Shown here: positions 1,994 to 4,514 of the stretch, piece by piece | How positions within the stretch are numbered: position 1 is the stretch's first letter | How the letters are laid out: the number at the start of each line of letters is the position of its first letter | Source of the DNA: Saccharothrix sp. | GTDB lineage: Bacteria > Actinomycetota > Actinomycetes > Mycobacteriales > Pseudonocardiaceae | Direction of reading: 5' to 3' | Length of the DNA: 64,000 nucleotides | Assembly: GCF_031180885.1 (NCBI RefSeq) | Contig: NZ_JAPSLK010000024.1 | Location: forward strand, 1 to 64,000 | Translations under genes and position numbers: made by a program | Notes under the pieces: generated by a model | What the model was told of the DNA's origin: nothing | The model's input: only the letters and a program-made list of their open reading frames with translations | The model's database searches: none

Positions 1994-2920
1994 TCACGCC
2001 AGCAGCCCGCGGGTTTCCTCCACGTCCTTGTGCATCTGGACCAGCAGCTCGTCGACCGAGTCGAACCTCTCCATGCCGCGCAGCCGCTCGACGAAGTCCA
2101 GCGCGACCCGCTGGCCGTAGAAGTCCTCGTCCACGTCGAGCACGAACGCCTCGACCCGCCGCTCCCGACCGCTGAACGTCGGGTTGGTGCCCACCGACAC
2201 CGCCGCCTTCAGCCGCCGGCCGTCGGCGTGGATGAACCAACACGCGTAGACGCCGTCGGCCGGGACCGCGGCGAACCGCGGGGTCGACAGGTTCGCGGTG
2301 GGGAACCCCAGCTCCTTGCCGCGCCCGTCGCCGCGCACCACGATGCCCTCCAGCCGGTGCGGCCGGCCCAGGGCGTGCGCCGCGGCCTTCACGTCACCGG
2401 CGTCGATGCACGCCCGGATGTAGGTCGACGAGTACGTCACACCGTCGTCGGTCACCAGGTCCGCCCCCTCGGTCACGAAACCGAACCGCTGCCCGAGCCG
2501 CCGCAGCAGCTCGACGTTGCCCGCGGCCTTGCTGCCGAACGTGAAGTTCTCCCCCACCACGACGGCCGCCACGTGCAACTGCTCCACCAGCACCTCGTGC
2601 ACGAACTCGTCCGCCGGCATCCGCGACACCTCCAGGGTGAAGGGGATGACGCAGAACACGTCCACGCCCAGCTGCTCGACCAGCTCGCTGCGCCGGCGCA
2701 GGGTGGACAGCTGGGCGGGGTGGCTGCCGGGGCGGACGACCTCGGACGGGTGCGGGTCGAACGTCATGAGGACGCACGGCACCCGCTTCTCGCGGGCGAT
2801 CTCCACGGCCCGGCCGATGAGCGCCTGGTGCCCGCGGTGCACGCCGTCGAACACGCCGATCGTAACGACACAGCGACCCCAGCCGCCCGGAAGGTTCTCC
2901 AGCCCTCGCCACCGTTGCAC
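1994..2920 (-). CDS. ribF: Bifunctional riboflavin kinase / FAD synthetase
   Basis: 308 residues, the usual length for prokaryotic RibF, which makes FMN and then FAD from riboflavin. The N-terminal nucleotidyltransferase domain shows TIGVFDGVHRGHQALIGRA and the YSSTYIR signature near residue 160. The C-terminal flavokinase domain shows RGKELGFPTANL and SVGTNPTFSG. GTG at 2918-2920 is chosen because it puts the conserved GVFDGVHRGH at about residue 22. It is downstream of truB, as in many bacteria, but a small membrane-protein gene is interposed here. Confidence 0.97.
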   Translation of the reverse strand: MQRWRGLENLPGGWGRCVVTIGVFDGVHRGHQALIGRAVEIAREKRVPCVLMTFDPHPSEVVRPGSHPAQLSTLRRRSELVEQLGVDVFCVIPFTLEVSRMPADEFVHEVLVEQLHVAAVVVGENFTFGSKAAGNVELLRRLGQRFGFVTEGADLVTDDGVTYSSTYIRACIDAGDVKAAAHALGRPHRLEGIVVRGDGRGKELGFPTANLSTPRFAAVPADGVYACWFIHADGRRLKAAVSVGTNPTFSGRERRVEAFVLDVDEDFYGQRVALDFVERLRGMERFDSVDELLVQMHKDVEETRGLLA

Positions 2921-2962: not shown

Positions 2963-3505
2963 TCAGCGGTCCCGGTCGAGGCGCACGTCACGGCCGGCCT
3001 GGTGGACCGTGCCGCCGTCGTGGGCGGTGGCGGACTGGTTGACGCTGTTGCCGTTGTTGACGTTGCCGTGCACGTAACCCACCTGGATGACGGGGCCGAC
3101 CGTGTTGCCCTTGTGCACGTTGTGCACGCTCCTGGGCACCACCGGCTGCTCCTGCGGCTGGGCGGACTGCGGCTGAGCGGCGTGCGGCTGAGCGCTCTGC
3201 ACCGGCGGGGCGGCGGGAGGCTCGGCGACGGCCGGCGCAGCGGCAGCCGACCCGGCGGCGGCAGGCGGAGCGGCGGCGAGCGGCGGGGTGGCGGGGATCG
3301 CGTCTCGTTGTGCCCTCTGCGCAACCTCGCGGTGCCGCAGGTCCGCTCGTTGGGCCGCGATGCCGATCCCCACGCCGAGCGCGGTCAGCAGGACCACGCC
3401 CGCCCACGCCAGGACGCTGTCCGCCCGGTCGGTGGCCACGTTGATGACCACCCCGGTGGCCGAGGTCACGACGCCGGCCGCGGTGGGCCACACCCATCTC
3501 GCCAT
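2963..3505 (-). CDS. Small membrane protein with C-terminal RHIM-like amyloid motif
   Basis: Predicted 180-residue protein, not a known family. Residues 6-24 and 31-51 are two hydrophobic helices (GVVTSATGVVINVA; VLAWAGVVLLTALGVGIGIA). A charged helix follows (RADLRHREVAQRAQRD), then about 55 residues of Pro/Ala linker with a degenerate AQPQ repeat. The tail carries HKGNTVGPVIQVGYVHGNVN (131-150). Its core VIQVG at 139-143 fits the RHIM-type tetrad (I/V)Q(V/I/L/C)G seen in amyloid signalling motifs, and GGTVHQAGRD at 164-173 looks like a weaker second copy. ATG at 3503-3505 is chosen; longer readings would run into truB. It is inserted between truB and ribF. An amyloid-triggered membrane effector is an inference. 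Confidence 0.7.
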   Translation of the reverse strand: MARWVWPTAAGVVTSATGVVINVATDRADSVLAWAGVVLLTALGVGIGIAAQRADLRHREVAQRAQRDAIPATPPLAAAPPAAAGSAAAAPAVAEPPAAPPVQSAQPHAAQPQSAQPQEQPVVPRSVHNVHKGNTVGPVIQVGYVHGNVNNGNSVNQSATAHDGGTVHQAGRDVRLDRDR

Positions 3506-3606: not shown

Positions 3607-4503
3607 TCAGCCCGCCGGCGTGAGCACCACCAGCGGCTTGGCGATGGGGCCCTCGTCCTTCGCCAGCGCCACCACGTGCCCGTCCGGGCCGAACACGCCG
3701 TACGTCCCCTCCATGCCGCCCGCCGGCAGGCGCTGGCCGTGGGACAGCGCGACCGCCTCGCGCGGCGCGATCTCCCGGCGCGGGAACGCCTTCGCCACCG
3801 CCTCGTCCAGCGACAGCGACAGGCCCGGCTCCTCGGCCAACCGCTCCAGCGTCCGCGCCACCCGCAGGTCGAAGGGACCGACCCGGGTGCGCCGCAGAGC
3901 GGCCAGGTGACCGCCCACGCCCAGGTCCGCCCCGAGGTCGCGCGCGAGCGCCCGCACGTACGTGCCCGACGAGCACTCGACCATCACGTCCAACTCGGTC
4001 GCGGACTCCTCGCGCCGGATCGCCAGCACGTCGAACCGGTGCACGGTCACCGGCCGCGCCGGGATCTCCACCGCCTCACCGGCCCGCACCCGCGCGTAGG
4101 CCCGCTTGCCGTCGATCTTCACCGCCGACACCGCGCTGGGCACCTGCTGGATCGGCCCGGTCAGCTTGGCGACACCCGCGCGGATCGCGTCCTCCGGCAC
4201 CGCCGAAGCGTCCGAAGTGGACAGAACCTCGCCCTCGGCGTCGTCGGTGGTGGTGGCCGCGCCCAGGCGGATCGTGGACAGGTACGCCTTGCTGTCCAAC
4301 GCCAGGTGGCCCAGCAGCTTCGTCGCGCGCTCCACGCCGAGCACCAGGACGCCGGTCGCCATCGGGTCGAGCGTGCCCGCGTGCCCGACCTTGCGGGTGC
4401 CGAGGATGCGGCGGACCTTCGCCACGACGTCGTGCGACGTCATGCCCTCGGGTTTGTCGACGACGACGAGACCTGGCTGCACAGCGGAAGATGATGCGGA
4501 CAC
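3607..4503 (-). CDS. truB: tRNA pseudouridine-55 synthase
   Basis: 298-residue TruB, which makes pseudouridine 55 in the T-loop of tRNAs. The catalytic motif is HAGTLDPMATGVLVLGVERAT with the nucleophilic Asp; VVDKPEGMTSHDVV and SGTYVRALARDLG are also diagnostic. The C-terminal part (GQRLPAGG ... VVALAKDEG) is the actinobacterial extension. GTG at 4501-4503 is taken because it begins MSASSSAVQPGLVVVDKP; the frame stays open far upstream, but there it is antisense-like sequence under the MFS gene. The MFS stop codon is 11 bases upstream. Confidence 0.96.
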   Translation of the reverse strand: MSASSSAVQPGLVVVDKPEGMTSHDVVAKVRRILGTRKVGHAGTLDPMATGVLVLGVERATKLLGHLALDSKAYLSTIRLGAATTTDDAEGEVLSTSDASAVPEDAIRAGVAKLTGPIQQVPSAVSAVKIDGKRAYARVRAGEAVEIPARPVTVHRFDVLAIRREESATELDVMVECSSGTYVRALARDLGADLGVGGHLAALRRTRVGPFDLRVARTLERLAEEPGLSLSLDEAVAKAFPRREIAPREAVALSHGQRLPAGGMEGTYGVFGPDGHVVALAKDEGPIAKPLVVLTPAG

Positions 4504-4514
4504 GACCGGACATC

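Follow-up and report, generated by a model that had tools for sequence, protein, structure and literature searches.

What does a gene for a small membrane protein with amyloid-like tail motifs do between truB and ribF? The question is raised by the first 64,000 nucleotides of contig NZ_JAPSLK010000024.1 of Saccharothrix sp., the whole stretch that was analysed (the window). The gene lies at 2963..3505 on the minus strand (stop codon at 2963-2965) and encodes a protein of 180 aa with two predicted transmembrane helices (2TM) and two different motifs in its tail. The type-1 motif (residues 127-151; 3053..3127, minus strand) has its core VIQVG at 3077-3091 and contains TVGPVIQVGYVHGNVN (residues 135-150); it was delimited by alignment, and its profile also matches the N-termini of NB-ARC proteins of the same genome. 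The type-2 motif (residues 155-174; 2984..3043, minus strand) includes GGTVHQAGRD (residues 164-173), with QAGRD at 2987-3001, and was recognised from its dN/dS and its co-occurrence with type-2 proteins elsewhere. We consider that the 2TM gene probably encodes a stand-alone membrane effector, or a receptor platform in the membrane, of the type used in bacterial amyloid signalling, and the distribution of the motifs suggests that several motif-matched partners share this one effector. The strongest evidence for this reading is the correlated loss of the type-2 motif of the 2TM protein and of a distant cyclase-like gene.

The type-2 profile (A6, built on 10 Saccharothrix 2TM rows, one cyclase tail, and four rows from other genera) gave 88 matches in 20 of the 25 Saccharothrix genomes. 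Twenty of them correspond to the 2TM protein, 20 to the tail of a cyclase-like protein, and 48 to other proteins in 18 of the 20 genomes. In the genome of the window (own genome), a Crp-like gene is followed by the gene for the cyclase-like protein (L047:5773-7388, contig C51), whose tail ends with the type-2 tag. The protein had no match in Pfam; its predicted fold is that of a class III nucleotidyl cyclase, and D14, K56-D58, and R126, putative catalytic residues of this class, are invariant in the 18 aligned sequences. Orthologues 65-86% identical to the own protein are present in 20 Saccharothrix genomes, all of them with a type-2 match in the tail (20/20), and all preceded by a Crp-like gene 95-98% identical to the own one (20/20).

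Twenty of the 25 genomes possess a 2TM protein with motif 2, and the cyclase-like gene is present in exactly those 20, as counted from per-genome tables. One of the 20 cyclase tails was used to build A6; the absence of the gene is independent of that profile. No type-2 match was detected in G004, G011, and G013, which have no 2TM gene, nor in G008 and G014, where motif 2 of the 2TM protein is deleted. The best cyclase matches in these five genomes are untagged relatives with 32-40% identity, and the Crp-like gene is kept (89-97% identity). In 14 of the 20 other genomes, the next gene after the cyclase-like one is a short open reading frame (ORF); the five retain this ORF too, and what they lack between it and the Crp-like gene is the cyclase-like gene alone. 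The occurrence of the ORF behind the cyclase-like gene in those 14 genomes was the reason to reject replacement of the cyclase-like gene by another ORF and to drop allele exchange at this locus. A short, probably helical ORF is located past the cyclase-like gene in many genomes, as seen at L229, where the distance is about 0.4 kb, and at L286-L290.

The 2TM gene and the cyclase-like gene are separated by 1.1-6.6 Mb in the 10 genomes with both on one contig. In the truB+ribF tree, G008 and G014 (support 100) are nested in a clade (support 100) with tag-bearing genomes, and G004, G011, and G013 (support 100) lie outside that clade, several deeper branches being weak (53-74). The five genomes without tag 2 are thus two separate clades. 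In Fisher tests that ignore phylogeny, the cyclase-like gene had a p value of 1.9e-5 and the other type-2 matches one of 4e-4. The probability that two losses distributed according to branch length would both coincide with these two branches is 0.0023.

Among the other type-2 proteins, the own genome encodes two NB-ARC-TPR proteins (L249 and L250), with both domains above the cut-off. Twenty of the 48 other loci were fetched, and 17 of these, all except L265, L266, and L267, were run through Pfam. Eleven of the 17 ORFs presented NB-ARC, STAND/AAA or TPR matches, some under the cut-off, and a GVGKS loop was seen by eye in three ORFs (L257, L263, and L264). L262 is a periplasmic-binding-like protein, and L253 and L254 had no Pfam match. 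A second type-2 ORF was not found within about 3 kb at any of the 20 fetched loci.

The 2TM gene itself was found in 21 of the 24 same-genus genomes searched, which gives 22 orthologues counting the own one, all at the same site and with lengths of 107-180 aa. Genome searches aligned 27 to 150 first-look candidates per genome, a zero meaning none among those scored; profile A1 was built on 16 of the 22 orthologues, A3 on 18 of 22, and A7 on 18 of 20. The orthologues give NxxSGTVxGxVVQAG as type-1 signature and VNQxAxAxxGGTVxQAGRD as type-2 signature. V127, N129, G137, Q141, and QAGRD at 169-173 are invariant in 22/22 orthologues, including the two without the rest of motif 2 (L021 of G014 and L023 of G008). 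Pooled over 8 orthologue pairs representing 16 of the 22 sequences, dN/dS came to 0.17 (0.11-0.26) in motif 2 and 0.29 in the head, against 0.54 in the linker (residues 56-124) and 0.90 (0.45-1.99) in motif 1. The head and motif 2 are under purifying selection. The earlier note on this DNA had taken GGTVHQAGRD for the weaker copy, a ranking which dN/dS and conservation reverse, though the Q of the first copy is fixed.

The highly variable linker and motif 1 would agree with a motif that arose by chance, on an ORF that is spurious or evolves neutrally. This explanation, whose probability we regard as practically nil, is already refuted by conservation: there are 22 orthologues at the same site, with invariant Q141 and QAGRD and with constrained head and motif 2, and the letter-reversed type-1 profile described below is almost silent. 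The RHIM core tetrad is (I/V)Q(V/I/L/C)G. Its background is 0.027 per 180 aa (14 matches to [IV]Q[VILC]G in 93,481 aa of open frames of the window), and this rarity, together with the residues fixed in 22/22, argues that the tail motif is not due to chance.

The same data do not support the RHIM identity proposed in the earlier note. The tetrad is kept in 2/22 orthologues, exact VIQVG is likewise found in 2/22, and the commonest form is VVQAG. Conservation of VIQVG, on which that note had made its claim depend, thus fails to the letter and holds for the Q, fixed in 22/22. The window protein matched no Pfam family even at E 10, although a short motif could escape the HMMER filters. The published BASS3 peptide (from the bacterial amyloid signalling sequences, BASS) scored 4.5 bits against the type-1 profile, and the best shuffle scored 9.0 (434 scored of 500 shuffles). 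The RHIM label was rejected on these three grounds. A literature search for the string VVQAG together with amyloid found nothing. What stood of the earlier proposal is a putative, BASS-like membrane effector, which is sustained by the tail motif, by motif-matched NLR-like proteins of the own genome, and by tagged sensor-like neighbours in relatives.

Whole-protein search of the own genome found the window protein as sole match, therefore short motif profiles were used. Profile A1, built on 2TM tails alone, gave 15 own-genome matches at E up to 10, including the window gene, and eight other places had E < 0.01. Type 1 opens three NB-ARC-TPR proteins (L048, L052, and L054), with NB-ARC and TPR above the cut-off. 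The earlier note had suggested a search for NLR-type partners with the same motif and had seen no motif-bearing partner in the window; such partners are encoded in the same genome, outside the window. Other A1 matches include membrane proteins, proteins with weak STAND/AAA matches (L049 and L050), a TPR protein (L055), a protein that matches a kinase very weakly (L051), and the type-2 protein of L047; two more (L045 and L046) look like chance. At L050:7399-10760 (contig C84) the frame of the motif-bearing STAND-like protein seems to be broken in two, by a frameshift or a sequencing error.

The refined profile A2 gave 305 matches at E 0.1, according to the per-genome tables, with matches in 25/25 Saccharothrix genomes and 18 in the own genome, a count that is partly by construction since 12 of the 18 rows of A2 come from it. 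The letter-reversed A2 control gave 2 matches over the 25 genomes and none in the own genome. A second motif ORF was present in only one of 12 own-genome type-1 loci (10.7-15.5 kb), so that most putative sensors of the own genome have no tagged neighbour visible to these profiles. The adjacent pair, at L058:5090-7484 on contig C94, consists of an 89-aa two-helix protein which ends with STVHGPNIQIGSAGGNVEVHEKP, followed by a 707-aa protein (TPR, weak STAND match) which starts with MNRVSHSSIAGPNIQIGSVTGDLSIA, NIQIG being present on both members. The NIQIG of this pair is nearer to the RHIM tetrad than the form in most orthologues of the window gene. Another stand-alone protein with type-1 tail recurs in several Saccharothrix (L087 and A2 rows with 137- or 198-aa open frames) and is possibly a second effector type.

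Relatives of the 2TM protein were also present beyond Saccharothrix. The head profile matched in 47 of 249 family genomes and 13 of 46 genera, and 40 loci were fetched. Lentzea pudingi (L120) encodes, in this order, a 722-aa TPR protein, a 2TM protein homologous to the window protein (54% identity over 41 residues; hhalign E 7.9e-19), and a 704-aa NB-ARC-TPR protein, all with type 1. At L153, a 2TM protein with type-2 tail adjoins an ORF in which type 2 stands ahead of DUF4062 and NB-ARC. Stand-alone genes for a 2TM protein plus tag were found at polA in four g39 genomes (L155, L158, L159, and L160), near lnt- and dpm-like genes in three g56 genomes (L154, L156, and L157), and near an SDR gene in three g65 genomes (L162, L164, and L167), gene names being assigned by eye.

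A type-2 2TM protein is present in 23 of the 249 family genomes, 18 of which also hold a further type-2 match; of the 226 others, 5 have a type-2 match. This comparison was read from rows by eye and ignores descent. Three of these five (G139, G196, and G240), which have a type-2 match and no known type-2 2TM protein, carry short open frames there. All three Umezawaea-type genomes carry both a type-2 2TM protein and the cyclase-like gene.

In the window, truB (3607..4504, minus strand, start approximate) is the upstream flank of the 2TM gene and ribF (1994..2920, minus strand) the downstream flank, all three genes being on the same strand. As the earlier note had recognised, the gene is inserted within this pair: truB was inside the fetched stretch in 22/22 orthologue loci and ribF in 20/22. 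In L009 and L017 ribF is beyond the fetched stretch, and L112, a longer record for the L017 genome, has it about 1.8 kb further. The 2TM gene is also beside truB in two Umezawaea species. The three Saccharothrix genomes without it have truB-ribF gaps of 366-614 bp without such an ORF. The gap could be measured in 12 genomes of other genera: its length is 11-145 bp in 10 of them, and the remaining two gaps (711 and 788 bp) contain unrelated ORFs, therefore the 2TM gene is judged from these comparisons to be an insertion of this lineage. L024-L027, matches in other genera with E 3e-4 to 1e-3 in the whole-protein search, were left out as non-orthologous.

The architecture described in the earlier note, with two membrane helices, a Pro/Ala linker, and GPVIQVG and GGTVHQAGRD in the tail, was found as described. 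AlphaFold predicted a first helix at residues 6-26 (3428..3490, minus strand) in the conserved head and a second one at residues 31-69 (3299..3415, minus strand), which is hydrophobic at about 31-50 and basic after; the tail had no confident structure. The Pro/Ala-rich linker (residues 70-124; 3134..3298, minus strand) varies in length between aligned orthologues. The N-terminus carries a positive net charge in 20/22 orthologues; the charge of the hairpin loop is zero or negative in 22/22, and that of the segment past helix 2 is positive in 16/22. This pattern of charges flanking the hairpin fits a cytoplasmic tail, which is the most likely topology. No cyclic-nucleotide-binding domain was detected in the window protein with Pfam, PADLOC left it unmatched, and NCBIfam gave matches far below the cut-off only. 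Weak PADLOC matches of the partner proteins (TPR, Cas, and mads_8 fragments) were judged generic or chance.

Tails rich in Gly, Asn, and Gln, with beta-prone repeats, would also agree with a structural or surface polymer, as would the fact that in several genera the gene stands alone next to housekeeping genes. In this reading the tails would assemble, at the membrane or extracellularly, into a homopolymer resembling a beta-solenoid, which has nothing to do with sensors. We hold this to be very improbable, as the same tags start NB-ARC/STAND proteins and end the cyclase-fold protein, the hairpin charges fit a cytoplasmic tail, and the loss is correlated with a distant gene.

For the effector reading, the following mechanism is proposed. 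The helical hairpin would sit in the membrane, with the tail and its two different tags most likely in the cytoplasm. NB-ARC/STAND proteins encoded elsewhere, which bear the same tags N-terminally, would act as sensors, and the Crp-linked class III cyclase-fold protein would take part through the tag 2 at its C-terminus. Upon sensor oligomerisation, the sensor tags would contact the effector tags and template them into a beta-arch polymer, and this polymer would cluster the hairpins, so that the membrane may be disturbed or a membrane signalling site assembled. A role in defence or cell death would be conceivable.

The main rival is a membrane scaffold that is not a killer, to whose tags the STAND sensors and the cyclase-like protein would attach by non-amyloid motif contacts, for example localising cyclic-nucleotide signalling which is read by the Crp-like neighbour. 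However, the Crp-like gene stays in the five genomes without the cyclase-like gene and motif 2, so Crp is independent of the 2TM protein, and the adjacent 2TM and sensor genes of relatives resemble published effector pairs. We regard docking of this kind as unlikely, though worth keeping in view.

Several observations weigh against an amyloid-type effector. Motif 1, with its dN/dS of 0.90, is possibly relaxed rather than diversifying. The type-1 count was not significantly related to 2TM gene presence in Saccharothrix genomes (p 0.071), and the three genomes without the 2TM gene keep 4-7 type-1 matches, thus type-1 proteins do not need the 2TM protein. In g65 (three genomes) and g39 (two genomes), 2TM proteins with type-2 tail occur with no second type-2 match at E 0.001 among 34 candidates scored per genome. 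Only two independent losses were seen, and the Fisher values do not account for phylogeny. AlphaFold leaves the tail unstructured, and the evidence is computational throughout.

Linkage of type-2 genes also counts on this side. In 4/20 genomes (G005, G009, G012, and G016), a sensor-like type-2 ORF is found on the ribF side of the 2TM gene at a distance of 12-16 kb; the ORFs concerned are L257, L263, L264, and L265. In the own genome this distance on the ribF side falls past the contig end. Three of the four ORFs are 51-57% identical to each other and the fourth is shorter; a search with the sensor body found clear orthologues in this position in G005, G009, and G016 only, and relatives with 37-48% identity at other places in further genomes, among them four of the five that have no tag 2. 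The short ORF behind the cyclase-like gene has a type-2 tag of its own in G018, so the 2TM protein is not the sole possible tag-2 effector, and G022 has a type-1 match 0.6 kb from the cyclase tag. The tag network thus comprises both local and distant members.

More tentatively, the 2TM protein may be part of a hub in pieces. In such a hub for amyloid signalling, tag 1 would link a core-genome membrane effector to many STAND sensors, and tag 2 would link it to a separate set of NB-ARC sensors and to the cyclase-fold protein. Immune inputs and a cyclic-nucleotide branch would then converge in trans on one executioner, tag 2 being kept only while tag-2 partners exist. We consider this extension possible, with less confidence than the effector reading itself.

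Bacterial amyloid signalling was defined from adjacent effector and NLR genes, and its searches are, according to PMC7889193, biased to such architectures. The 2TM gene is a candidate stand-alone effector tied to its partners by correlated loss, which offers a way to find unlinked networks of this type and names specific protein pairs that may cross-seed. Amyloid-type signalling would thereby also come to involve a cyclase-fold protein, for which no earlier case was found in a limited literature search. Taken together, a variant of bacterial amyloid-type signalling, not RHIM, is supported by correlated loss between distant genes.

BASS1-10, which go back to Dyrka et al. 2020, are described as motifs of Bell effectors and NLRs (PMC7889193, PMC8086366, PMC9815663, PMC12261475), in which the sensor tags template the effector tags via an amyloid fold (PMC7889193, PMC8086366, PMC9815663, PMC7885112). 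As in what these texts report, a short Q/G motif ends a small membrane-linked protein and starts NB-ARC/NACHT proteins of filamentous actinobacteria, the effector C-terminus and the NLR N-terminus sharing the same motif. Repeats of the effector motif are on record for BASS, and the 2TM tail has two motifs. An NTPase domain followed by repeats was found in L048, L052, L054, L249, L250, and the third L120 gene, and the remaining partner proteins had weak matches only, or TPR alone. Adjacency of effector and sensor was found in L058, L120, and L153. Unlike the effector genes of BASS systems, the 2TM gene has no putative sensor gene as its neighbour (truB is on one side in 22/22, ribF is within the fetched stretch in 20/22, and the nearest type-2 sensor-like ORF is at 12-16 kb in 4/20 genomes), its head is a 55-residue two-helix hairpin, and one tail combines two different motif types, one of which is shared by a class III cyclase-fold protein.

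With regard to RHIM, fungal PP, and BASS3, the own VIQVG and the NIQIG of both L058 proteins fit the tetrad; as differences, the tetrad is present in 2/22 orthologues, the commonest form being VVQAG, and the spacing QVGxGNxxQ of Frankia BASS3 is not kept. In Basidiomycota, NLR and effector motif sets are unlinked, and the authors speculate that many NLRs control one effector (PMC9815663). Our case is similar to those sets in having many sensor-side and few effector-side motifs which are not co-located; it differs in being bacterial, with correlated loss at distant loci. Pycsar systems can use membrane effectors. Unlike what is expected for Pycsar, the tie in Saccharothrix is a shared peptide tag, the 2TM protein has no detected cyclic-nucleotide-binding domain, and the catalytic activity of the cyclase-fold protein is putative. 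The likeness to Pycsar (PMC11224242) is that a cyclase-fold protein is functionally tied to another protein.
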